39,990 nucleotides of DNA from a virus. Below the pieces are notes generated by a model that saw only the letters and a program-made list of their open reading frames with translations, was not told the DNA's origin and made no database searches. The position numbers and the translations under genes were made by a program. Every line of letters starts with the position of its first letter. Positions within the stretch are counted from its first letter, which is position 1. Below are positions 2,161-24,211 of the stretch, one piece after another. The DNA lies in IMG/VR virus record IMGVR_UViG_3300044960_000472, positions 1-39,990 of that record; one strand, 5' to 3'.

Positions 2161-3116
2161 CGGGTCCCCCAGGAGATGACACCGTCGAACGGCGCGGACG
2201 GCTTCAACCGCATGCCGTTCTGCGTGCGGTTTACGACGGCGACGGCGACGGTGTCGTCGTTCGCACCGGCGAGGCCGGGTGTCGCGAAGAACTGATACGT
2301 GTACCCGGCGGGGTACGGCACCGCGAATGTGACGTCCTTGTAGTCAACGCCGTCCCCCGAGCCGGAGCTCGACATCGCGACGACGCCGCCTTCCTCGTGC
2401 CCGGCGGGGACGACGGCCGAGCCCGGCGCGCCGGTGCGCCAGATGACCGCCTTCACGTAGTCGAGAAGCGCGCGTCCCGACGCCGAGTTGTTCTGCGTCC
2501 ACACGCTGATGTGCACGGCGTCTTGCGACGTGACATAGCCGTTTTTTGTGTAGACAAGAATATCGTCGATGAAGAACTCGATCTTTGACCCGGTCTTCCG
2601 GATCTCGAGGCTCTTGTAGCTGGCGACGGGAACGGCAACGCCGGTGTTTACCGCGGCATCTGCGCCGACCTTTGCCTCGATATTGAAAGTCGCACCCGCA
2701 TCGCGACGCAGGATGAAATGAACGCCCTGCGCCGGGATCAGAGAATAGATGCCCGCGATGAGATTCATCGCCGCGCCCGTCGCATAGTCGGGGAGCTTCA
2801 GCCGCGTGCGGAAGCGCCAGTCGCGCGTGCCGATGCTCATCTGCGACGTCTGCACCGCGGCGCCAGTATTCGCGAGCTGGGCGCAGCCCTGCGCGGCGCC
2901 CGCGATCGCGACGTCGTTCAGGATCGTCACGCCGGCATCCGCTCGCCACACCCGGTTGAGCGAATCGCCGGTGAACTCGTCGGCGATGACGAAGTCTTCG
3001 CCGCCGACGAGGCTGAAGAACTTCACGTCGTCGTCTTGCAGATCGTTCAGCGTTTTCCCGTCGACGTCGGAGACGCCGGCCTGAAACGATCGATTGCGCG
3101 TGTAGGGCAGGCCCAT
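2157..3116 (-). CDS. Tail fibre / lectin-like tail protein
   Basis: A 319-residue protein. The N-terminus (R-S-F-Q-A-G-V-S-D-V-D-G-K-T-L-N-D-L) looks like a short baseplate-attachment segment. Residues about 45-230 have the pattern of a concanavalin-A-like jelly roll: D-E-F-T-G-D-S-L-N-R-V-W, then W-R-F-R-T-R-L-K-L, then a sheet containing S-K-I-E-F-F-I-D-D. The C-terminal part is a second small beta domain. It follows the gp48 homologue, where Mu carries its fibre gene, so a receptor-binding or side-fibre role is inferred. Confidence 0.68.
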   Translation of the reverse strand: MGLPYTRNRSFQAGVSDVDGKTLNDLQDDDVKFFSLVGGEDFVIADEFTGDSLNRVWRADAGVTILNDVAIAGAAQGCAQLANTGAAVQTSQMSIGTRDWRFRTRLKLPDYATGAAMNLIAGIYSLIPAQGVHFILRRDAGATFNIEAKVGADAAVNTGVAVPVASYKSLEIRKTGSKIEFFIDDILVYTKNGYVTSQDAVHISVWTQNNSASGRALLDYVKAVIWRTGAPGSAVVPAGHEEGGVVAMSSSGSGDGVDYKDVTFAVPYPAGYTYQFFATPGLAGANDDTVAVAVVNRTQNGMRLKPSAPFDGVISWGTR

Positions 3117-3119
3117 CTC

Positions 3120-4055
3120 TCAGCTCCCGATCACGTCGCGGTCGCAGAGGCTCCGCGAGTCGTTGACGATCACCGTCGTGCGCTCGCAGACGCGAGACCT
3201 GTAGTGCGCGTGCGCCGTCGTCGCGAACAGGCGCTGTCCCTCGACGAAATCGCCCGTACCGGCGAGGTTCGGATCGCGCGCGGCGTAGAAGTGGAAGATC
3301 TGCCGCGAGTCCTCGTCGTTCGAGACCATCAGCTCGACGGCGTAGATCCTCGCAGGGTCTCCACCGTTCACATCGACACGCACCGTCCACGGACCCGCGG
3401 CGCGCTTGCCGACGAACGTCGCGCGCTTCCGCTTCTTGTTCACCGCGCGGACGTTCTGATCATCGAAGGTCACCGTCCAGCTCGTGCCGTCGCCGTGGGT
3501 CACCGTGCCATCGATCGTGGCGGGGCAGTCGTAGTCGATCGCGAGTGCGACGCCGACGTCATCGACCTTCCCCGGCCACGCCGCCGGCACGTGCCACAGC
3601 AGCGACTGCCCGTCGGCGACGAAGATCCCCGCCGCGCCACCGTACTCCTCGCGTGCGGTCATCGCCTTCTCGACGTCTGCACGCAGCATCTCGACGAGCA
3701 CGACGTCGTTCGGATTCACGAAGGCGAACGCTGGCGCGAGCAGCTCGCGCAGCTGCGCCGGCGTGCTGCCGTTGATGCGGCCGACGGCGGCCGCGACGCG
3801 CGCTTGTCGCGTCGCGGTCGAGTCGGTGGGCCGCGTCGCGATCCTCCAGATCGCTTCGAGCCGGTCGAGCGTCTCGACGGCGCTGTCCGGGAAGAGCTCG
3901 GCCTTCATGGCGTCGAAGCGATCGACAACGCGTCCGACGACGGTCGCGATTGCCTGCGCCTCTTCCCAGACGCCATACGCATCGAGCGCTGGCCACTTCG
4001 GCCAGAACCTGCGAAGCGCGTTCAGAACGCGATCGAAGCTCAGCGGCGGCGCCAT
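3120..4055 (-). CDS. Baseplate wedge / tail protein gp48-like (DUF2313 type)
   Basis: A 311-residue protein. The ATG overlaps the stop of the baseplate J gene (TGATG), the start favoured over longer open frames upstream. Residues about 5-110 fit the Mu gp48 / DUF2313 family: P-K-W-P-A-L-D-A-Y-G, a long helix with V-D-R-F-D-A-M-K-A-E-L-F-P-D-S-A, then T-L-D-R-L-E-A-I-W and R-I-N-G-S-T-P-A-Q-L-R-E-L-L. The C-terminal two thirds look like additional beta-rich tail sequence ending near D-R-D-V-I-G-S. It probably bridges the baseplate wedge to the fibres. Confidence 0.75.
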   Translation of the reverse strand: MAPPLSFDRVLNALRRFWPKWPALDAYGVWEEAQAIATVVGRVVDRFDAMKAELFPDSAVETLDRLEAIWRIATRPTDSTATRQARVAAAVGRINGSTPAQLRELLAPAFAFVNPNDVVLVEMLRADVEKAMTAREEYGGAAGIFVADGQSLLWHVPAAWPGKVDDVGVALAIDYDCPATIDGTVTHGDGTSWTVTFDDQNVRAVNKKRKRATFVGKRAAGPWTVRVDVNGGDPARIYAVELMVSNDEDSRQIFHFYAARDPNLAGTGDFVEGQRLFATTAHAHYRSRVCERTTVIVNDSRSLCDRDVIGS

Positions 4056-8552: not shown

Positions 8553-10546
8553 CAGCCGTTCCCCGTCGTCCGCCGCACGCGCACCGTCGCGGATCGCGTC
8601 CCGGTGTCGCCGCCGACGGACGCTTCCCCGTCGGCCGAGAGGTTGATCGTCAGGTTGAGGGGACGATCGGCGATGCCCTCGAAGAGCGAGTCGAGCCCCA
8701 TCGCCTTCAACAGCTCGAGCGGGTTCGTCACGCCGCTCTCACGGAACGTCGCCTGTCCGCCGCTCGTCCCGCCGGCGAGCACACCGAGGGGCATCTGCGA
8801 CTCGCCCTCGGGGTGATCGGCGAGGAACAGTGCCTGTCCGCGCGTCAGGCCGCGCTCCGCCATCAGCTCGCGCACGCGGAGCTCGCGCTGCGCGCTCTTC
8901 GCCGCGAGCATCCCGCGATGCGAGGCGGCGCCGCGCTCGACGCTCTCTTGGTCGCGCTCGTCGGCGCCGAAGAAGTGGCGCATCTGCGCCGACGCGTCGT
9001 CGGAGATCCCGAAGGTGTCGTCGAGCGCCTCGCCCATCCCGAAGCCGACGCCGAACGCGCCGAGCAGCTTCAGCGCGCCGAGCAACTTGCCGCCGCCGTT
9101 CACTTTGCTCTGGCGCATGCCGGCGAGATCTTTCGAGCCGCCCTTGCCGAGCTCGCCGAGTGCGCCGGCGCCGCCGAGCGGGCTGCCCCCGGCGAGCCCG
9201 CCGCCGAAGCCGGCGGGCCAGTTCGTCACCGTCACCGGGATCGCGCCTGCTGCGCCTCCCAATGCCGCACCGAGCGCGCCCGCGGCGCCGCCGCCTCCAC
9301 CGCCCAGGCCGAGCCGAGACGCGAGCAGCCGGCCTCCTACGCGCAACCCGAGCATGCCCGCGAGCGCACCGCCGCCGGCGAGTAGCGGATGCGATGTCGT
9401 GACGTCGAACGCGCCCGGCAGAAAGCCGGCTGCTGCGCCGCCGAGCCGATCGAGCGAGTTGCCCATGTTGCGATCGGCCGACGCCTCCATCTCGATTTGC
9501 GCTTGACGCATTTTCGCGACGGTCGATCGCGTATTGGTTCGGAACTTCGCATTGAGGAGCGCGGGGTCGCCGGCGACGTCGCGGAAAGACTCGAACGTCG
9601 GGAAGCCGCCCGTCGCGCGAAACTCCGACGCGAGCATGTTCACGCCGCGCATCGCCTCGTCGCCAAAGATGCCGTCGCCCTTGATCCGGCGGAGCTGGAA
9701 CTCGTCCCCCTTCGCTTTGCGGATGACATCGAGGAGCACCTCGACGCGATCGCGCCCTTTGACTTTGATGCCGGCGCCCTCGATGACGTCGGCCTTCTCG
9801 GCGATGTCGCGGAATGCTGCTTCGACGGCCGTTGACGTGCGCTCGACGTTGCCGGTCCCCTTCTGGAAGACCTGCGCCATCGCGCCGCCCTCGCGGAGAC
9901 CCTTCTCGCCGGAGAGGCCCGCGCCCATGAACGCCGAGAGGAGGCGCGGTCCCTGCGACACGAGGTCCTTCAGCTCGACGGATCCGACGTCGCTCTGCTT
10001 CGCGAGGATCGCGAACGCGTTCGCCTGATCGTCGATCTTCAGCTTCTCGAGGTCGGCGGCGACGGCCGCGATCTCCTTCGCCTCCGATCGCGTCGCGCGT
10101 GCGACCTTGCCCCAGAGCTCGAGGTTCTTCGTCCCCTTCTCGATGTCGCCCGTCTTCGCCACGAACTGCGAGAGGGCGTCGTTCATGTCCTTCGCGAAGA
10201 CGTTCGTCGCCTTCGCCGTCTCGAGCAGTTTCCCGCGCAGGCTGTCGATCTGCTCGTCGGTCAGGCCCGCCGTCGCGCCGAGACCATCGACCGCGTCGCG
10301 CAGCTCGAGTACTCCCTTCGCCTGCGCCGCGATCCCGAGACCCGCACCTGCTCCCGTCAGCCCGGCGAGAGCGCGCGCCGTCGTCGATGCGAAGCTCGCG
10401 ATCTCCGAGCCGGCGCGGCGGAGCTCCTGCCCGATCGTGCCGGTGAACGACTTCACTGACCGCTCGCCGCCGCGGAACCCTTCCGAGAGGGAGCTCGCGC
10501 CGTCGAGCGAGACGCGGAACTGCAGCTGATCGTCGGAGCCGATCAT
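8552..10546 (-). CDS. Tape measure protein (Mu gp42-like)
   Basis: A 664-residue protein that sets tail length. The N-terminus has the family pattern (L-Q-F-R-V-S-L-D-G-A-S, then S-V-K-S-F-T-G-T). An Ala/Gly-rich helical body with small-residue-rich membrane-like stretches follows (residues about 390-430 and 440-490, very Gly/Ala-rich). Its ATG overlaps the stop of the frameshifted tail chaperone frame (ATGA), so translation of that frame is coupled to it. At 664 residues the encoded tail is predicted to be short compared with long-tailed siphophages, in keeping with a Mu-like contractile tail. Confidence 0.88.
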   Translation of the reverse strand: MIGSDDQLQFRVSLDGASSLSEGFRGGERSVKSFTGTIGQELRRAGSEIASFASTTARALAGLTGAGAGLGIAAQAKGVLELRDAVDGLGATAGLTDEQIDSLRGKLLETAKATNVFAKDMNDALSQFVAKTGDIEKGTKNLELWGKVARATRSEAKEIAAVAADLEKLKIDDQANAFAILAKQSDVGSVELKDLVSQGPRLLSAFMGAGLSGEKGLREGGAMAQVFQKGTGNVERTSTAVEAAFRDIAEKADVIEGAGIKVKGRDRVEVLLDVIRKAKGDEFQLRRIKGDGIFGDEAMRGVNMLASEFRATGGFPTFESFRDVAGDPALLNAKFRTNTRSTVAKMRQAQIEMEASADRNMGNSLDRLGGAAAGFLPGAFDVTTSHPLLAGGGALAGMLGLRVGGRLLASRLGLGGGGGGAAGALGAALGGAAGAIPVTVTNWPAGFGGGLAGGSPLGGAGALGELGKGGSKDLAGMRQSKVNGGGKLLGALKLLGAFGVGFGMGEALDDTFGISDDASAQMRHFFGADERDQESVERGAASHRGMLAAKSAQRELRVRELMAERGLTRGQALFLADHPEGESQMPLGVLAGGTSGGQATFRESGVTNPLELLKAMGLDSLFEGIADRPLNLTINLSADGEASVGGDTGTRSATVRVRRTTGNG

Positions 10547-11210
10547 CCTCGACGCCTCCGCATCGCCTTGCGCAGCATCTTCTTGCGCTCGCGGTCGCGC
10601 CGACGAACGGCCGCGAGGTTGATCGTCCTCTTCGGTCCGCCGGCCGCATCCGCCGCGAGCTCTTTACTCGAGACGTGCATCGCGCTCAGCCAGAGGAGCT
10701 CGCCGCGGTCGAGCGTTGCAGCTGGTCGACCAAAGTAGTGATGAGCGCGATCAGCAAGCTCGAAGGCGAGCCGACCAACACTTCCCGCGGGGAGTTTTTT
10801 TTTAGCTCCTCGACGAGACGGAGGAGTTCCTCCTCCGACCACTCCCCCGGCGCGACGTCCTGCTGCAGCGCCTGCCACTCTGCGTAGAGGAGGTCGCGCT
10901 CGACGGACGGCAGCGCGTGCACCTCGTCGACCGTGCCGATCGGCGCCCCATCCTCGTCGGTGCATGCCCGCGCGATGAGCGCCGACTTCTCGCGGTTGAT
11001 GAAGACGCCGTCGGTCGGCTTGATGCCGCTCTTGCCCTTGAAGTACTCGAGCGTCTCGAGATAGGCGCGCTCGCGCTCGAAGTTCCCGAGCACGCGGAGC
11101 ACCACCGACGGGCGCTCGCCCTTTGTCTCGATCGGCCACGGGATCGTCTTCTCGCGCGGCCGGGCAGGCTCGATGCGCGAGAGGAGCGAGATCTTCTCTT
11201 TCTTTGCCAT
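10543..11210 (-). CDS. Tail assembly chaperone, long form made by -1 frameshift at A9
   Basis: The upstream frame (from 11210) enters an A9 run (10795-10803, read as A on the minus strand). A shift of -1 continues into a second open frame that ends at 10543. The joined product would be 222 residues; (668+1) bases divide evenly by three. The downstream part (F-G-R-P-A-A-T-L-D-R-G-E-L-L-W-L-S-A-M) reads as real protein and ends in a very basic tail. Mu gp41, lambda G/GT and many tailed phages make their tail chaperones this way. The second stop is coupled to the tape-measure ATG. Confidence 0.8.
10686..11210 (-). CDS. Tail assembly chaperone, short form (Mu gp41-like)
   Basis: Without frameshifting the gene gives 174 residues. 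The N-terminal region (R-V-L-G-N-F-E-R-E-R-A-Y-L-E-T-L-E-Y-F) and the acidic helical W-S-E-E-E-L-L-R-L-V-E-E-L-K-K fit Mu gp41-type tail chaperones. An AAGGAG site lies about 8 bases before the ATG. After the A9 run this frame yields about 37 further residues (S-S-L-L-I-A-L-I-T-T-L-V) before a stop. Short and long forms are expected in a fixed ratio and bind the tape measure while the tube polymerises. Confidence 0.82.
   Translation of the reverse strand: MAKKEKISLLSRIEPARPREKTIPWPIETKGERPSVVLRVLGNFERERAYLETLEYFKGKSGIKPTDGVFINREKSALIARACTDEDGAPIGTVDEVHALPSVERDLLYAEWQALQQDVAPGEWSEEELLRLVEELKKNSPREVLVGSPSSLLIALITTLVDQLQRSTAASSSG
10795..10803 (-). promoter_or_regulatory. A9 slippery tract for -1 frameshift in the tail chaperone
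   Basis: Nine consecutive T on the plus strand (A9 in the mRNA) sit in the overlap of the two chaperone frames. Such runs permit ribosomal slippage or RNA-polymerase slippage. A run this long is striking in a genome so rich in G and C. Confidence 0.75.
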
Positions 11211-18873: not shown

Positions 18874-19415
18874 CGCGCACCTTCCGCGCTGTGAACCCAG
18901 CGGTACAGCAGTGCAGCTACTTCATCCCGGGGTTCCTGTAGGGATCCCGGCTGGCCCCCTGAGCCGGACCCCCGTTCAAAAATGTTCAAAAGGCCTTCAA
19001 AAACGACGATTGGGGGTCGGGGGGTATCGGGATAGCCCCCCCGATCGAAAACGAGCCACAGAGGGCCGTTTTCGAGGTCCGCCCAAAAGGCGCGCTTGCC
19101 AAGCGATCCAAGGCGCGCATCATGGTCCCGATGGCGCTCTACCGCTGCACGCAGTGCGATCGGGACGTTGACGTCGAGACGTCCCACCTCGGCCCATGGT
19201 CGGCTAAGGCACTGCTGCCGCCGGTGCGCGTCCTCTGCGAGAGCTGCCGCCGCGAGCTCGCGCTCGCCGTCCAAAACGACGGCGGCCGCGACTTCGTCGT
19301 CCTGAACGGTGACCGCTTCGGTGCGCTCGGCGGGGCGTTCGTTCGTTCGGAACACCAGGCACACCGCGAGCGCTAGCAGCGCCGCGATCGCCGCGTCTCG
19401 CAGGCGATCTCGCAT
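18870..19415 (-). CDS. Putative membrane-anchored protein filling the MuF-protease gap (doubtful in its 3' half)
   Basis: A 181-residue frame. The ATG overlaps the MuF stop (TGATG) and the stop overlaps the protease start (ATGA), so it fits the gap exactly. The N-terminus has one membrane segment (A-A-I-A-A-L-L-A-L-A-V-C-L-V-F). The middle and end (W-A-D-L-E-N-G-P-L-W-L-V-F-D, then V-V-F-E-G-L-L-N-I-F-E-R) use less biased codons and overlap a structured, less G+C-rich stretch (18970-19045). An antisense frame at 19122-19376 competes with it. The true protein may be shorter. No family recognised. Confidence 0.45.
   Translation of the reverse strand: MRDRLRDAAIAALLALAVCLVFRTNERPAERTEAVTVQDDEVAAAVVLDGERELAAAALAEDAHRRQQCLSRPWAEVGRLDVNVPIALRAAVERHRDHDARLGSLGKRAFWADLENGPLWLVFDRGGYPDTPRPPIVVFEGLLNIFERGSGSGGQPGSLQEPRDEVAALLYRWVHSAEGAR
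18970..19045. repeat. Three phased TTCAAAA repeats and a G/C-run hairpin
   Basis: TTCAAAA occurs at 18975, 18985 and 18996, spaced 10-11 bases or one helical turn. A stem follows, made of G6 plus TATC (19019-19028) pairing with GATA plus a C-run (19031-19042), with one bulged base. Base composition differs from the surrounding genes, which suggests a regulatory or transferred segment. Confidence 0.55.
19122..19376 (+). CDS. Possible antisense zinc-ribbon protein
   Basis: An 84-residue plus-strand frame opposite the preceding entry. It reads M-A-L-Y-R-C-T-Q-C-D-R-D-V near the start (M4) and V-L-C-E-S-C-R-R-E-L-A-L-A-V further on. Two C-x2-C pairs about 30 residues apart are typical of a zinc ribbon, and codons are G/C-ending. 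No strong ribosome site is seen (AAGG about 8 bases before the first ATG). If real it is a lone plus-strand gene inside the leftward late operon, like a moron. The alternative is chance reading of the antisense strand. Confidence 0.35.
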   Translation: MVPMALYRCTQCDRDVDVETSHLGPWSAKALLPPVRVLCESCRRELALAVQNDGGRDFVVLNGDRFGALGGAFVRSEHQAHRER

Positions 19416-20983
19416 CAGAGGACCTCCCACAGCGATTGATTGACGGCGACGCGCTCGGCGCGGTCCCAGCCGTCGAGCGGCTGCTTTGACAGCGTCACCT
19501 GCACGCGACCGCCTTCGAGCTCGCGGACGTTGCGGTAGGCGTGACGCCAGCCGCGCTGATCGGCGGGGAGCTCGACGCCTTCACCAGCGGCGATGCGGAC
19601 GTCCTGGATCTCCCACGCCCTCCGAACCGGCGACTTGCCCTCACCGCGTTCACCATTCGCGGCGAGGAAGTCGAGGACGCGTTCGAGCTCCTCGCGCGAT
19701 TCGACGCGCATTCGGAGCGCGTACTCGGTCGACCGCGCGACGGTCATCCCTTCGGCGCGCCCGAGTCGCGTCGCGAGCTCGGCGTCGTGCACGACCTCCG
19801 GGTCGGCCCACCGCACGGGGTCCCACTCGCCGAAGTAGGTCGCGCGCGCCGCGACCCCGACTCGATCCTTCAGCGCGTAGAGGCCGTCGGTCTGCACGAG
19901 GCGCGTCGCGAGCTGCTCGGCGGTGTCGAGGTTCTGCGAGTACATGTGCCAGTCGACGTGCCAGCCGTCGCGCGGCGGCGCGTCGCCGCGCGGCTCGACG
20001 TTGAAGACGAACGTCTGTTCGAGCCGCTTCGCCACCTCGTCGGGTGAGAGCCCCGCGTAGCGATCGACTCGAGCCGCACGCGCGACGTCGTCGACGCGAT
20101 CGAGGTCGGCCGGGGACTGTCCGAGAACGCCGGTCGCCGACGCTTGCCTCTCGATCTCGCGCACGACGCGATCGGCGGTCCGCTGCGTCGCGGGCGACCC
20201 GCTGAAGCCGGGATCGGGCAGCATCTGGACCGTCTGCCCGTCGGCGGTCTGGACCATTCGCGGCAGCTCGTCAGAGACGGTGTGTCCCTCGCGATCGATC
20301 TGCGATTGGCTGAGCGAGTCGACGCTGCAGCGGCAACCCCAACCGTTCGGCGGGTACCACCGTTGCCACACCGGATCGTCGGCGCGGAAGACGCGCCCGT
20401 TCATCTCGCGGTGCGACGGCCGGACGCGCGAGTCGCCGGCGGTGCGGTAGATCCAGAACGGCCGCGCCGCGATGACGTCGGGATCGGTCAGCTGCGCGTA
20501 GCGGCCCGCTGCGTACGACCCGAGCACCGCCTGATCGAAGACGGTTCGAAGCTGCCAGTCGCCGAGCTGCCCGACGCCGGCAGAGTCGAACGCGGCGCGA
20601 ATCTCGTCGAGCGTCTCGCGCTCGGCAGTGCCGCGCTCGAGCGCCTTCGAGAGCGCCTCATGCGCCGTCTCGAGGACGTAGCGCGACTGCACGCCGGCGA
20701 TCGAGAAGCCCTTCGCCTTGTACATGTCTTCGAGGGCGTCGAGCTCCTCGGGAGACATCACCTTCTTCGACTTGAAGAACTCGACCGCCTCGTCGAACGG
20801 GAGCCCCGTGAAGAGGGTCTCGGCGGTGATCTTCAGCGACAGGTCCGGCGCGTCGCCGTGCGCCGATGGCGCCTGCAGCCGCCCGAGCATGTCGGCGTGC
20901 ATCGACACCTCGGTCGCCGCCGTCGCGATCTTCGCAATCGCCGCCGACGTCAGCAGCGTGAACAGCATCGCCCTCGCCTTCAT
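19415..20983 (-). CDS. Minor head protein MuF (Mu gp30/F-like)
   Basis: A 522-residue protein when started at ATG 20983, chosen for the GGGAGGGG site just before it. The MuF core is seen as L-P-F-D-E-A-V-E-F-F, then V-F-D-Q-A-V-L-G-S-Y-A-A-G-R-Y, then R-P-S-H-R-E-M-N-G-R-V-F and P-P-N-G-W-G-C-R-C at about residues 190-255. After it a long C-terminal part (about 200 residues, from roughly 320) is not needed for the MuF fold and is of unknown function. The same frame stays open upstream to the A10 run in the portal gene, so a portal-MuF fusion is possible. Confidence 0.82.
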   Translation of the reverse strand: MKARAMLFTLLTSAAIAKIATAATEVSMHADMLGRLQAPSAHGDAPDLSLKITAETLFTGLPFDEAVEFFKSKKVMSPEELDALEDMYKAKGFSIAGVQSRYVLETAHEALSKALERGTAERETLDEIRAAFDSAGVGQLGDWQLRTVFDQAVLGSYAAGRYAQLTDPDVIAARPFWIYRTAGDSRVRPSHREMNGRVFRADDPVWQRWYPPNGWGCRCSVDSLSQSQIDREGHTVSDELPRMVQTADGQTVQMLPDPGFSGSPATQRTADRVVREIERQASATGVLGQSPADLDRVDDVARAARVDRYAGLSPDEVAKRLEQTFVFNVEPRGDAPPRDGWHVDWHMYSQNLDTAEQLATRLVQTDGLYALKDRVGVAARATYFGEWDPVRWADPEVVHDAELATRLGRAEGMTVARSTEYALRMRVESREELERVLDFLAANGERGEGKSPVRRAWEIQDVRIAAGEGVELPADQRGWRHAYRNVRELEGGRVQVTLSKQPLDGWDRAERVAVNQSLWEVL

Positions 20984-22521
20984 CTGCCCCTCCCGTTCGA
21001 CCAGTCGCAGGACATCGCCCGTCAGCTCCTCGAATCCCCGTCGAGCACGCTCAGGCGCGCGCGCGACGAGGTCCTCTACGTGCCCCAGTCCATCGACCGC
21101 TTTTTTTTTTCGGCGGCCGCGAGCGTGAAGCCGCCGCCGCAGTGCGGACACGCGCCGTGCCGCCGCGCGAGATCCGCCGATTCCTTCGCGGTCGGCGGCG
21201 CGGCGAATTCCGGCGGCGCCTCGCCGCCCGTCGGCTCGATCGCGTCGTCGTCCGTCTCCGGCTCGCGCCAATCGAAGCGCTCGTAGACCTGCGCCTTCGA
21301 GAGCCGCACGCCGAGCTTGCGGCCGATGGCCATCGTCTCGGCTTCGACCTTGCGCGTCTCCGCCCGCGCCTTCTCGTCGACGGGCGCGCCGACCTTGTGG
21401 CAGATCCGCGGACGCGGCGCCGTCGGCCCGTAGTGGTAGACCGTCCACGGACCGAGGAGCTGCGCGTTCAGCAGCTCGTCGAGCCAACCGCCGTGAGCTT
21501 CCTTGCGGTCCTGCCTGAGTTCGTTCGCGACCTGCGATCGCGCGCGCGAGCCTTCGCCCATCTCCGACGTCTCGGCCTGGCCGAGCATCGCCTTCGCGAT
21601 CGCCTTCTCGCACCACGCGATGAAGGCGAGATAGACGTCCTTGATCGACGCCGCCTTCTGGATCGCTTCGAGGAACTTCAGCTCGACGCCGGCCGGAAGG
21701 AGGCCGACCTGATCGGCCATCAGCGCTTTCGCGGCGTCCTTCGCGCGCTCGAGCTCGGGCGCCCCCTCGCGCAGGTGCGGCGGCACCTGGATCGTGATGA
21801 ACGGGTGACCGAACCGCTCGAGGTACGACGCGCAGTCGATGAGGTTGTAGCCCTTGTAGAGCCACAGCTTCGCGACGGTGCGACCGAGGCCCGAGCGAAG
21901 GAACGCCGCGTTCCGCCGATACCACGCGACGATGATCCCAGGCGGCACGAGCTCGCCGTTCGGCGCGTTCTTCGTCTCGAGGTGAAGCTGCCCGTCGACG
22001 AGCCGACAGAAGCGCGTCTCAATCGCCTGGTGACCCGTGACGATCCACTCGTTCCCGTCCGCCGTCCACAGCGGTTGCACGAGCGAGAACTCGCGGAAGA
22101 TCGCGTCGAGCAGATCGACCTTCATCTGCGTGAACGACGGGATTCGCTTCAGGAAGCGCTCGGCGTGCTCAGCGATCGCGACGGCCTGGTCGGAGTCGTC
22201 ACCCGGCTCGACCTCCCACGGCGCGCCGGCGACCGCGAGCTTCAGCGTCTCGAGGCAGTGCGACACCTGCTCGTCGACGGCGACGTCGTCGAGCAGCTCC
22301 ATCCAACGCGCGAGGTTGCCGCGATCGGCGTCGCGCAGCGCGGAGAGCAGCCGCTCCGGCGAGATGTTCGTCGCCGGGTAGGTGCGCCAGTGCATCCGCG
22401 CCTGATCGAACTCCGTCGGCGGTGGCGGCTCGGTCGCGACCTCTGTCTTCGCGGCGGCGAGCGCGCGCGACGCCGAGGACGCCGTGGTTTCCTTCGCTAC
22501 GAACGGCCACCAACGCATCAC
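19415..22521 (-). CDS. Predicted portal-MuF fusion by -1 slippage at A10
   Basis: The portal frame (from 22521) and the MuF frame differ by -1 and meet at the A10 run (21101-21110). A shift there would give 1035 residues; (3107+1) bases divide evenly by three. Between the run and the MuF ATG (20983) the shifted frame reads V-E-D-L-V-A-R-A-P-E-R-A-R-R-G-F-E-E-L, a helical stretch with normal codon use that looks like genuine portal C-terminus. By contrast the unshifted frame stops after about 10 residues. A permanent frameshift mutation or homopolymer sequencing error would give the same picture. Confidence 0.55.
21076..22521 (-). CDS. Portal protein (Mu gp29, DUF935)
   Basis: A 481-residue portal protein of the DUF935 family. 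Motifs: T-N-I-S-P-E-R-L-L-S-A-L-R-D-A-D-R-G near residue 55; D-E-Q-V-S-H-C-L-E-T-L-K; I-F-R-E-F-S-L-V-Q-P-L-W; L-R-S-G-L-G-R-T-V-A-K-L-W-L-Y-K-G-Y; and E-R-F-G-H-P-F-I-T-I-Q-V-P. It forms the DNA entry ring of the head. GTG 22521 overlaps the terminase stop; ATG 22518 is the next codon. Just before its stop are C-P-H-C-G-G-G and K-K-K encoded by A10. Mu gp29 is about 512 residues, so the C-terminus here may be cut short unless frameshifting occurs. Confidence 0.87.
   Translation of the reverse strand: MMRWWPFVAKETTASSASRALAAAKTEVATEPPPPTEFDQARMHWRTYPATNISPERLLSALRDADRGNLARWMELLDDVAVDEQVSHCLETLKLAVAGAPWEVEPGDDSDQAVAIAEHAERFLKRIPSFTQMKVDLLDAIFREFSLVQPLWTADGNEWIVTGHQAIETRFCRLVDGQLHLETKNAPNGELVPPGIIVAWYRRNAAFLRSGLGRTVAKLWLYKGYNLIDCASYLERFGHPFITIQVPPHLREGAPELERAKDAAKALMADQVGLLPAGVELKFLEAIQKAASIKDVYLAFIAWCEKAIAKAMLGQAETSEMGEGSRARSQVANELRQDRKEAHGGWLDELLNAQLLGPWTVYHYGPTAPRPRICHKVGAPVDEKARAETRKVEAETMAIGRKLGVRLSKAQVYERFDWREPETDDDAIEPTGGEAPPEFAAPPTAKESADLARRHGACPHCGGGFTLAAAEKKKRSMDWGT
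21101..21110 (-). promoter_or_regulatory. A10 slippery tract at the portal 3' end
   Basis: Ten consecutive T on the plus strand (A10 in mRNA) lie at the point where the portal frame and the open frame leading into MuF exchange by -1. Long A runs are known sites of transcriptional and ribosomal slippage. Confidence 0.6.
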
Positions 22522-23972
22522 AGCACCCCCGACGAGCGCGACCAGGTGCGCCGGCCGAAGCTCGAGAGCACGCCGAGGTCGCCGAGCTGCGAGTCGCCCG
22601 CCGCCATCTTCGCGAGCGCCATCGACCAGAAGTAGTCAGCGTGACCGCCGGCGTCCGTCGACGCAGAGTCGAAGCGCGTGTGCCCCGCCGCCGTCGTCGT
22701 CTTGTAGACGCTGTTCAGCGACATACGGATCGCCTCCGCGCGCGGAAGCCGATTCGTCCGATCCTCGAAGCTGCGAAGGACGCGGACCGCGAGGTCCTCC
22801 TTCACCGTCGTCGAGAACTGCACGCCCTCGGCCTTGGCGCCGAAGCGCTCGACGGTCTCCTCGGCGAGCTGGTTCCCGATCACGCCCTGGTCGATGCAGC
22901 CGCGTCGGCAGTGCTCGAACGCCGCCCAGAGGCACGCCTTCTGCTCGGCGTACCGTCGGCCGCGCAGCGCGACGACGGCGCGCGTCCAGCGGAGGCCGCC
23001 GAGCTCCTCCTCGATCCACAGGACCGAGAGGTCCTTCGAGCGGCCGACGTCGTAGCCGAGGTAGAGCTCGCGGCCGGCGAGCGGCGCGAACAGGCGGCGC
23101 CACGCCGCCGGCGAGTCGTATCCGGCCGACGGCGGCGCCTCGCCGGCGCGGTCGAGGTGGCGCTGCCAATCGTTCCGGTCCGCGTCGATGACGAGGTACG
23201 GGACCAGCAGCGCGTCGTCGCTCTCGCACGCGATGATCGCGTCGACCGAGATGAGCCGCGTATCCTCGTCCTCGAACTCGACGAGGTACTCCGTCACGAA
23301 CGCGCGCCCCGTCGTGAGCGCCTTGATCTTCTCGAGGTCGAGCGGCGCGCCCTCGGCGATCGCCTTGTACACGTCGACGGTGTGCAGCGACCAACCCTTC
23401 ATCTCGCCGGAGCACACGCGGTAGAACGGTCCGCGCTTCGCGCCGGGCGTGCCGACGAGGCGGAGCTTGAAGCCCTTGCGGCCGGCGATCGGCGCCGCCG
23501 CCGCCCAGACCGCTTCGTCGTCGGGCGTCTTGCCCGCCTCGTCCCAGATCAGGTTGCCGTGACGGCCGCGGATCGTGAGCGGGTTCGTCGGCAGCCCGAC
23601 GATGCGTGAGCCCTCGGGGAACTCGACGACGTGGATCGTGAACTTCTCGCCGTCGACCTTCAGCTCGTCGTCGCCCATCTGCGCGCCGAGCTCGAGCGCT
23701 TGGCAGTGCAGCGACGCGTAGCGGATCATCTCCTTCGTCTGCCCCTCGGCGCCGGCGAAGACGAACCAGTTCGCGCGGCGGCGATCGACCTCGGCGAGGT
23801 GGCAGTCGAAGACCGGCTCGAGCATCACGCCGTGCGTCTTGCCCGCCGAGCGGCACCACCGGCCGGCCTTCAGGTGCGCCGGGTCGAGGAGCCAGCGCAC
23901 CTGATACGGGTAGAGCGGAGCGACCGCTTCCCCGACGGCGTCGACGAGCTGCTCGCGCGTCTCGAGCGTCAC
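22518..23972 (-). CDS. Terminase large subunit (Mu gp28-like)
   Basis: A 484-residue packaging ATPase/nuclease. With GTG 23972 as start (GTGA overlap with the upstream stop), the Walker A-like G-R-W-C-R-S-A-G-K-T is at about 37-46. Walker B L-I-W-D-E is at 141-145, the coupling motif G-T-P-G at about 174, and the RuvC-like nuclease opens with L-Y-L-G-Y-D-V-G-R-S-K-D (Asp308). The C-terminal A-D-Y-F-W-S-M-A-L-A-K is typical for terminase ends. It packages DNA into the prohead, and in Mu-like phages cuts inside flanking host DNA. Confidence 0.9.
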   Translation of the reverse strand: MTLETREQLVDAVGEAVAPLYPYQVRWLLDPAHLKAGRWCRSAGKTHGVMLEPVFDCHLAEVDRRRANWFVFAGAEGQTKEMIRYASLHCQALELGAQMGDDELKVDGEKFTIHVVEFPEGSRIVGLPTNPLTIRGRHGNLIWDEAGKTPDDEAVWAAAAPIAGRKGFKLRLVGTPGAKRGPFYRVCSGEMKGWSLHTVDVYKAIAEGAPLDLEKIKALTTGRAFVTEYLVEFEDEDTRLISVDAIIACESDDALLVPYLVIDADRNDWQRHLDRAGEAPPSAGYDSPAAWRRLFAPLAGRELYLGYDVGRSKDLSVLWIEEELGGLRWTRAVVALRGRRYAEQKACLWAAFEHCRRGCIDQGVIGNQLAEETVERFGAKAEGVQFSTTVKEDLAVRVLRSFEDRTNRLPRAEAIRMSLNSVYKTTTAAGHTRFDSASTDAGGHADYFWSMALAKMAAGDSQLGDLGVLSSFGRRTWSRSSGVL

Positions 23973-24211
23973 GGCGCCCCCCATTCGTCGCAAACGAAGT
24001 CATCGACGTCGTGCTCGGGGACCGCGACGAGAATCGGGTGAGTGACGATGCCGCCGTTCGAATCGGGGTTCGTGATCACCTGGACTTCGGTGCGCGCAGG
24101 CACGCGTCGCGTCTCGTGGTGCCCGGCGAGGCACGGACGCTCGTTCGCTGCGATGATCGCGCCGCCGGCGACGCCGACAGCGACAATGAGAGCGACGACG
24201 AGCCAGAACAT
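23969..24211 (-). CDS. Small single-pass membrane protein
   Basis: An 80-residue protein: M-F-W-L-V-V-A-L-I-V-A-V-G-V-A-G-G-A-I-I-A-A is one membrane helix, followed by a polar tail with a Cys (E-R-P-C-L-A-G-H-H-E-T-R). A GTGAGG site lies directly before the ATG, and the stop overlaps the terminase GTG. It lies between the small and large terminase genes, an odd place for a membrane protein. No family recognised. Confidence 0.65.
   Translation of the reverse strand: MFWLVVALIVAVGVAGGAIIAANERPCLAGHHETRRVPARTEVQVITNPDSNGGIVTHPILVAVPEHDVDDFVCDEWGAP

Follow-up and report, generated by a model that had tools for sequence, protein, structure and literature searches.

How are two head proteins connected when the gene for the first, the portal, stops just past a homopolymeric run and the frame one base back stays open through the gene for the second, MuF? 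The question is raised by a 39,990-base uncultured-virus sequence, analysed over its whole length and referred to here as the window. The window derives from a transposable Mu-like phage, with a Mu transposase, a MuB-like ATPase and an S24-type repressor, its late region lies on the minus strand, and its GC content is 65-71%. The portal matches PF06074 Portal_Mu over residues 74-417 (E 4.4e-67, 227 bits against a cut-off of 23.9), with the phrog_113 portal family as its second profile match, and directly after it follows a PF04233 match of 71.5 bits against a cut-off of 29.6. Single-protein scans gave no close relatives of the portal, MuF or the terminase, the best relatives of the portal having at most 32% identity.

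Table 1. Features of the portal-MuF junction and of the presumed tail chaperone locus (window positions).
Feature	Position	Strand	Basis
Presumed large terminase, directly upstream of portal	22518..23993	-	Position and gene order
Portal gene, zero-frame (short) product, 481 aa, Mu gp29/DUF935 type	21076..22521	-	PF06074, phrog_113
A10 slip run (T10 on + strand), phase GAA AAA AAA AAG	21101..21110	-	Sequence; profile and codon-usage frame switch; conserved in relatives
A AAA AAG heptamer in portal reading frame, E. coli dnaX shift site	21100..21106	-	Sequence; PMC5009743
Zero-frame TAG stop of short portal, 8th codon past run	21076..21078	-	Sequence; TAG aligned at same place in L172
-1 frame from run to stop: portal C-terminal domain and MuF; with portal, 1035 aa	19415..21109	-	Open frame
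Portal C-terminal helical domain in -1 frame (..VEDLVARAPERARRGFEELTGDVLRLVE..MHADMLGRLQ..)	20867..21100	-	29-portal profile, +16 bits; shuffle and segment controls
MuF reading frame from own ATG, possible separate initiation	19415..20983	-	ATG 20981-20983 and GGGAGGGG at 20987-20994
MuF domain PF04233	20321..20662	-	E 1.2e-19; phrog_220 minor head protein
Presumed tail assembly chaperone pair: zero frame 10686-11210, -1 extension to 10543 via A9 run	10543..11210	-	Position, frames, gene order

On the minus strand, close to the 3' end of the Mu-type portal gene, the run counts exactly ten A; besides the A10 itself, the junction holds A AAA AAG, a recognised slippery sequence that is correctly phased with the zero frame. 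Past the run the zero frame reads CGG TCG ATG GAC TGG GGC ACG TAG, and the portal stop, placed about ten codons away in the initial annotation, is the eighth codon. Lysine in the window is encoded by AAG in 439 of 476 cases and by AAA in 37, GAA accounts for 159 of 864 glutamate codons, and with this codon usage the probability of Glu-Lys-Lys-Lys being spelled GAA AAA AAA AAG is about 0.001. The run is beyond chance: 40 kb of DNA at 65-71% GC contain just two A/T runs of at least 7, of which it is one. The other is a run of nine in the presumed tail assembly chaperone gene (10795-10803, T9 on the plus strand and A9 in sense), where a -1 shift opens a gpGT-like extension reaching the start of the tape-measure gene; presumably, the same kind of signal is present at a well-known type of frameshift site in this genome.

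At this GC content a long open -1 frame has little meaning by itself, and it is homology that counts. Known DUF935 portals continue for about 100 residues beyond the core, and the C-terminal helical domain of the separately encoded relatives is found only in the -1 frame of the window and is missing from the zero-frame product. A profile built from 29 separately encoded portals scored 261 bits with the -1 frame, against 244.5 with the zero frame and 244.2 with the +1 frame; aligned in this way with its DUF935 relatives, as had been suggested, the portal continues in the -1 frame as far as column 523 of 526. Against the 16 bits gained in this way, no more than 9.1 bits was gained in any of 1000 tail shuffles and no more than 8.3 in any of 479 segments taken from the other proteins of the window. 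The codon-usage log-odds also change at the run, favouring the portal frame before it and the -1 frame after it. Profile scores, shuffles and codon usage therefore agree that the frame changes at the run, in agreement with the initial annotation, which had proposed that the A10 joins the portal and MuF frames by a -1 shift and had predicted a fusion of 1035 residues; the -1 frame is indeed open from the run to 19415. The sequence ahead of the MuF ATG (20983), which had been described as convincingly helical, belongs to this portal C-terminal domain. Homology to MuF in other phages does not set in before about residue 100 of the -1 product, and the ATG therefore lies inside portal-like sequence. 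Between the window and its relative L172, changes in the -1 frame fall 14, 22 and 34 times on the three codon positions across 49 codons, and the shifted frame scores as coding by homology, codon usage and third-position changes. MuF has a good start site of its own, and the fusion may not be its sole source. Two features of the flanking protein sequence are recorded here: the last ~230 MuF residues (19415-20100, minus strand) match no convincing Pfam family, yet are shared with L172, and the portal linker contains a CPHC motif (ACPHCGGGF, at 21120-21160 on the minus strand) immediately before the run, with TCPHCSSF at a comparable place in the L146 fusion.

Relatives were collected from viral contigs, where 237 portal and MuF loci were classified, or 181 once near-copies were removed. 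Thirteen loci of this set are single-ORF portal-MuF fusions, and an A9 or A10 lies at the junction in nine loci, the window included. In five of the nine (the window, L172, L174, L180 and L187) the portal is stopped in the zero frame, and in the other four (L051, L110, L198 and L209) the zero frame is itself the fusion. The -1 frame of L174, L180 and L187 (301-335 aa) comprises the portal C-terminus and MuF, their zero-frame stop being at most 15 codons away, and reading the -1 frame of L172, L174, L180 and L187 raises the portal profile score by 10-30 bits. The four fused loci have stops in both other frames within 12 codons of the run, for which the product of the four within-ORF frequencies is 4e-5. 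L172, the closest to the window in MuF (46% over the alignment), has an identical GAA AAA AAA AAG and its zero-frame stop at an equal distance, and its -1 frame ends after 77 codons, short of MuF; the otherwise matching lengths suggest a one-base difference, though this early stop could be real. In the viral set, only the five split loci and L148 have a separately encoded portal that does not reach the family C-terminus and has fewer than 40 residues left. In a tree of 123 loci the split and the fused loci with a run require three changes each and are nested among ordinary fusions, and repeated gain or loss is therefore likely; both states are present within one clade. The closest neighbours of the window and L172 in this tree, L148 and L189, are without the run and carry a portal-like C-terminal motif on the MuF frame, not on the portal.

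The search was extended to cellular genomes of the phyla represented by three locus-bearing genomes (Lysobacteraceae, Armatimonadota and a spirochete), through which 11 prophage loci with A10 or T9 at the junction were reached. A zero-frame portal stop with MuF in the -1 frame is found with A10 in L311 (65% GC), L344, L347, L353, L354 and L355 and with T9 in L364 (run at 2562), and the fusion is in the zero frame with A10 in L351, L352 and L363 and with T9 in L274 (run at 1515). The frames that do not lead to MuF end within 20 codons in all of these loci. L353 and L354 keep the run with differing surrounding sites, and in L347 the portal C-terminus is complete upstream of the run. When the window and L051 portals were scanned against cellular genome contigs, only six distant loci were returned, none of the six with a junction run. 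Two further observations were made. The divergent Mu-type portals of L271 and L272 have an A7 (run at 3626) followed by an identical stretch of ~39 nt with a hairpin, their zero frame ends after 9 codons, their -1 frame leads into MuF and their upstream linkers are unrelated; this pair looks like a ribosomal version of the same device. In Armatimonadota phylum genomes (L312-L339) there are many Mu-type portals of ~365-457 codons, with MuF not detected within the 1.5 kb fetched.

Taken together, at least 20 portal-MuF loci from viral contigs and cellular genomes, the window included, have an A9, A10 or T9 at the junction, and both the site and its frame relation are conserved across them. In 12 of the 20 the portal reaches its stop no more than 15 codons from the run, and in 11 of these 12 the -1 frame reaches MuF, the exception being L172; the remaining eight encode the fusion in the zero frame, and each of their other two frames is closed by a stop within 12 codons. 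Comparison of the run in related loci had been suggested from the start, and it is conserved in phages and prophages with the frame relation expected for slippage. On these alignments the conservation spans distant loci, because no relative of the window portal above 32% identity was found. In the viral set a junction run occurs in none of 213 separate-gene loci and in 9 of 18 fused or split loci (p 1e-11), runs of at least 9 number 9 across 73.8 kb of junction sequence and 7 across the other 1339 kb (binomial p 2e-8), one of the seven being the chaperone site of the window, and the genome set has 12 junction runs against 2 elsewhere (p 2e-9), or 11 without L342, although these p-values overstate independence because the loci are related. 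About half of the portal-MuF fusions were found without the run, and slippage is therefore not needed by every fusion; a search of the run-less natural fusions for X XXY YYZ heptamers gave nothing consistent.

Several candidates were set aside in this count. The A10 of L342 (run at 3079) lies inside the MuF domain, in a separate-gene locus where the domain goes on in another frame. L103, L242, L029 and L142 have A runs elsewhere than at the junction; the L242 run, an A10 at 994, falls where an upstream gene meets a frame similar to a large terminase, and is a possible slip site or a mere gene start. Pseudoalteromonas phage HS6, an apparent fusion in tblastn, encodes portal and MuF separately, the two genes sharing a frame but divided by a stop.

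The data point, very probably, to a conserved programmed slip site whose product is a portal-MuF fusion. The alternative that fares best, though unlikely, is that the functional product of the shift is a full-length portal and that reading on into MuF is incidental, as might be supposed from the L172 locus, whose -1 frame recovers the greater part of the portal C-terminal domain and ends before MuF, and from the separate start site of the window MuF. However, the shifted frame reaches MuF in every one of the 11 other -1 loci, the shift in L347 adds MuF alone to a portal whose C-terminus is in the zero frame, and the zero-frame product is already the fusion in eight loci.

Homopolymers mutate and fused and split states occur within one clade, and the run might instead vary in length between phage generations and toggle the fusion at the DNA level. 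There is only a slim chance of such phase variation, since the 12 split loci share one and the same offset of a single base (-1), each of their 11 A runs has a length of exactly ten, the A10 persists in L353 and L354 despite their differing flanks, and a structural gene is an unlikely contingency locus. It was also considered that the run, a homopolymer in an uncultured-virus record, contains a sequencing or assembly error, that the true gene is one continuous portal-MuF frame, as in the single-ORF fusions that exist, and that nothing slips. The lengths that would give such a frame here are A11 or A8 (the initial annotation had named A9 or A11, of which A9 is wrong), and even A11 would be a slip-prone run, strongly disfavoured by codon usage. 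Moreover, the same A10 is out of frame by -1 in L172, L174, L180, L187, L311, L344, L347, L353, L354 and L355, two of them in contigs of more than 1 Mb, and several single-ORF fusions also keep the run with stops right behind it in both other frames; the probability that we assign to an error is slimmer still, and on the comparison of loci it is not a credible explanation. A real, non-functional frameshift in a decaying prophage, conceivable for an uncultured virus sequence without virion data, is the least probable reading, since the transposase, MuB-like ATPase, repressor, DnaB, amidase and structural genes of the window are all open and the run and frames are conserved in 19 other loci.

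A programmed slip site would act as follows. Unslipped reading would give the short portal of 481 residues, ending soon past the portal core, and the gain of one A (a -1 shift) would add the portal C-terminal helical domain and the whole of MuF to give the 1035-residue fusion. Of this scheme, the sequence and its frames, the match of the -1 frame to portal C-terminus and MuF, and the conservation of run and frame in relatives were observed directly. Slippage would set a fixed ratio of short portal to portal-MuF fusion, and the shared portal core would allow both to assemble into a mixed portal ring, from which a limited set of tethered MuF chains would point into the head, such that the number of MuF copies would be fixed covalently; here we infer the slippage itself, the entry of both products into the ring and the importance of their ratio.

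RNA polymerase slippage on the A run appears to be the more likely route, a preference we hold with some reserve, because the phase of the run varies between lineages, T9 can replace A10 and no shared downstream RNA structure was detected. RNA-structure z-scores downstream of the run were between -2.0 and +1.3 across 8 loci with no structure in common, a shared hairpin being found only in the A7 pair, L271 and L272. Slippage of RNA polymerase depends on the length of the run. Ribosomal -1 shifting on A AAA AAG would be an alternative or a helper. The initial annotation had expected the fusion to be a minor population; the fusion itself stands, and that it is minor may not hold, as reporters shift at 40% for A9 and 63% for A11 (PMC3711429) and the A11 of tssM1 at about 20% (PMC4256274), and the fusion therefore need not be rare.

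An AlphaFold model of the L209 fusion (mean pLDDT 66, which is low) places the run near residue 405, where a disordered linker (375-408) ends ahead of a confident helical domain (409-490) and then MuF, and in this model the run could mark a place where two lengths are tolerated. Residues 808-895 of the same fusion form a predicted PBECR2 nuclease-like C-terminal domain, and the slip site would decide how much of the PBECR2-like domain is tethered to the portal. More broadly, and with a modest leaning in its favour, junction slippage may be a widespread, repeatedly gained means by which Mu-like phages fix the number of portal subunits carrying tethered MuF and its C-terminal cargo, the head vertex being a deliberately mixed ring. 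If so, the loading of a few MuF copies at one vertex would have a simple answer, covalent attachment set by the slip rate, mixed portal rings would be predicted, and some phage genomes would be mis-annotated here, with a portal that looks truncated and a MuF that looks separate.

Extended proteins made by a shift are classical in phage tails. The gpG/gpGT tail chaperone frameshift of dsDNA phages resembles the window site in having a -1 shift near the 3' end of the upstream gene, a C-terminally extended product and a set ratio, and it is present in the window genome too, with an A9 run; unlike gpG/gpGT, which is a chaperone of the tail tape measure, the window site joins two head proteins, portal and MuF. 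In SPP1 the portal gp6 and the MuF protein gp7 are, by contrast, encoded by separate genes and associate non-covalently. Portal and MuF are found in one polypeptide in the fusions of Microbacterium phage clusters EA and EB, but these are one continuous gene, and the accessible part of that source describes no slip site or two-product scheme (PMC7302621). We found no report in the open-licence literature of portal and MuF being joined by a slip site or frameshift; such a slip site is apparently undescribed, which is not proof of novelty, whereas portal-MuF gene fusions and tail chaperones made by slippage are known already. The closest parallels in signal are bacterial. The dnaX gamma/tau site is also an A AAA AAG or an A9/A10 run, with the long product in the zero or the shifted frame and nearby stops in the other frames, and its shift is ribosomal in E. 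coli and due to transcriptional slippage on A9 in Thermus (PMC5009743, PMC3711429), although dnaX is a bacterial DNA polymerase gene with no sequence relation to the locus studied here. Although tssM1 of Citrobacter rodentium is a Type VI secretion gene, it likewise has an A run (A11, transcriptional slippage) upstream of a stop, where slippage at ~20% yields the long form and the short and long forms are both required (PMC4256274).
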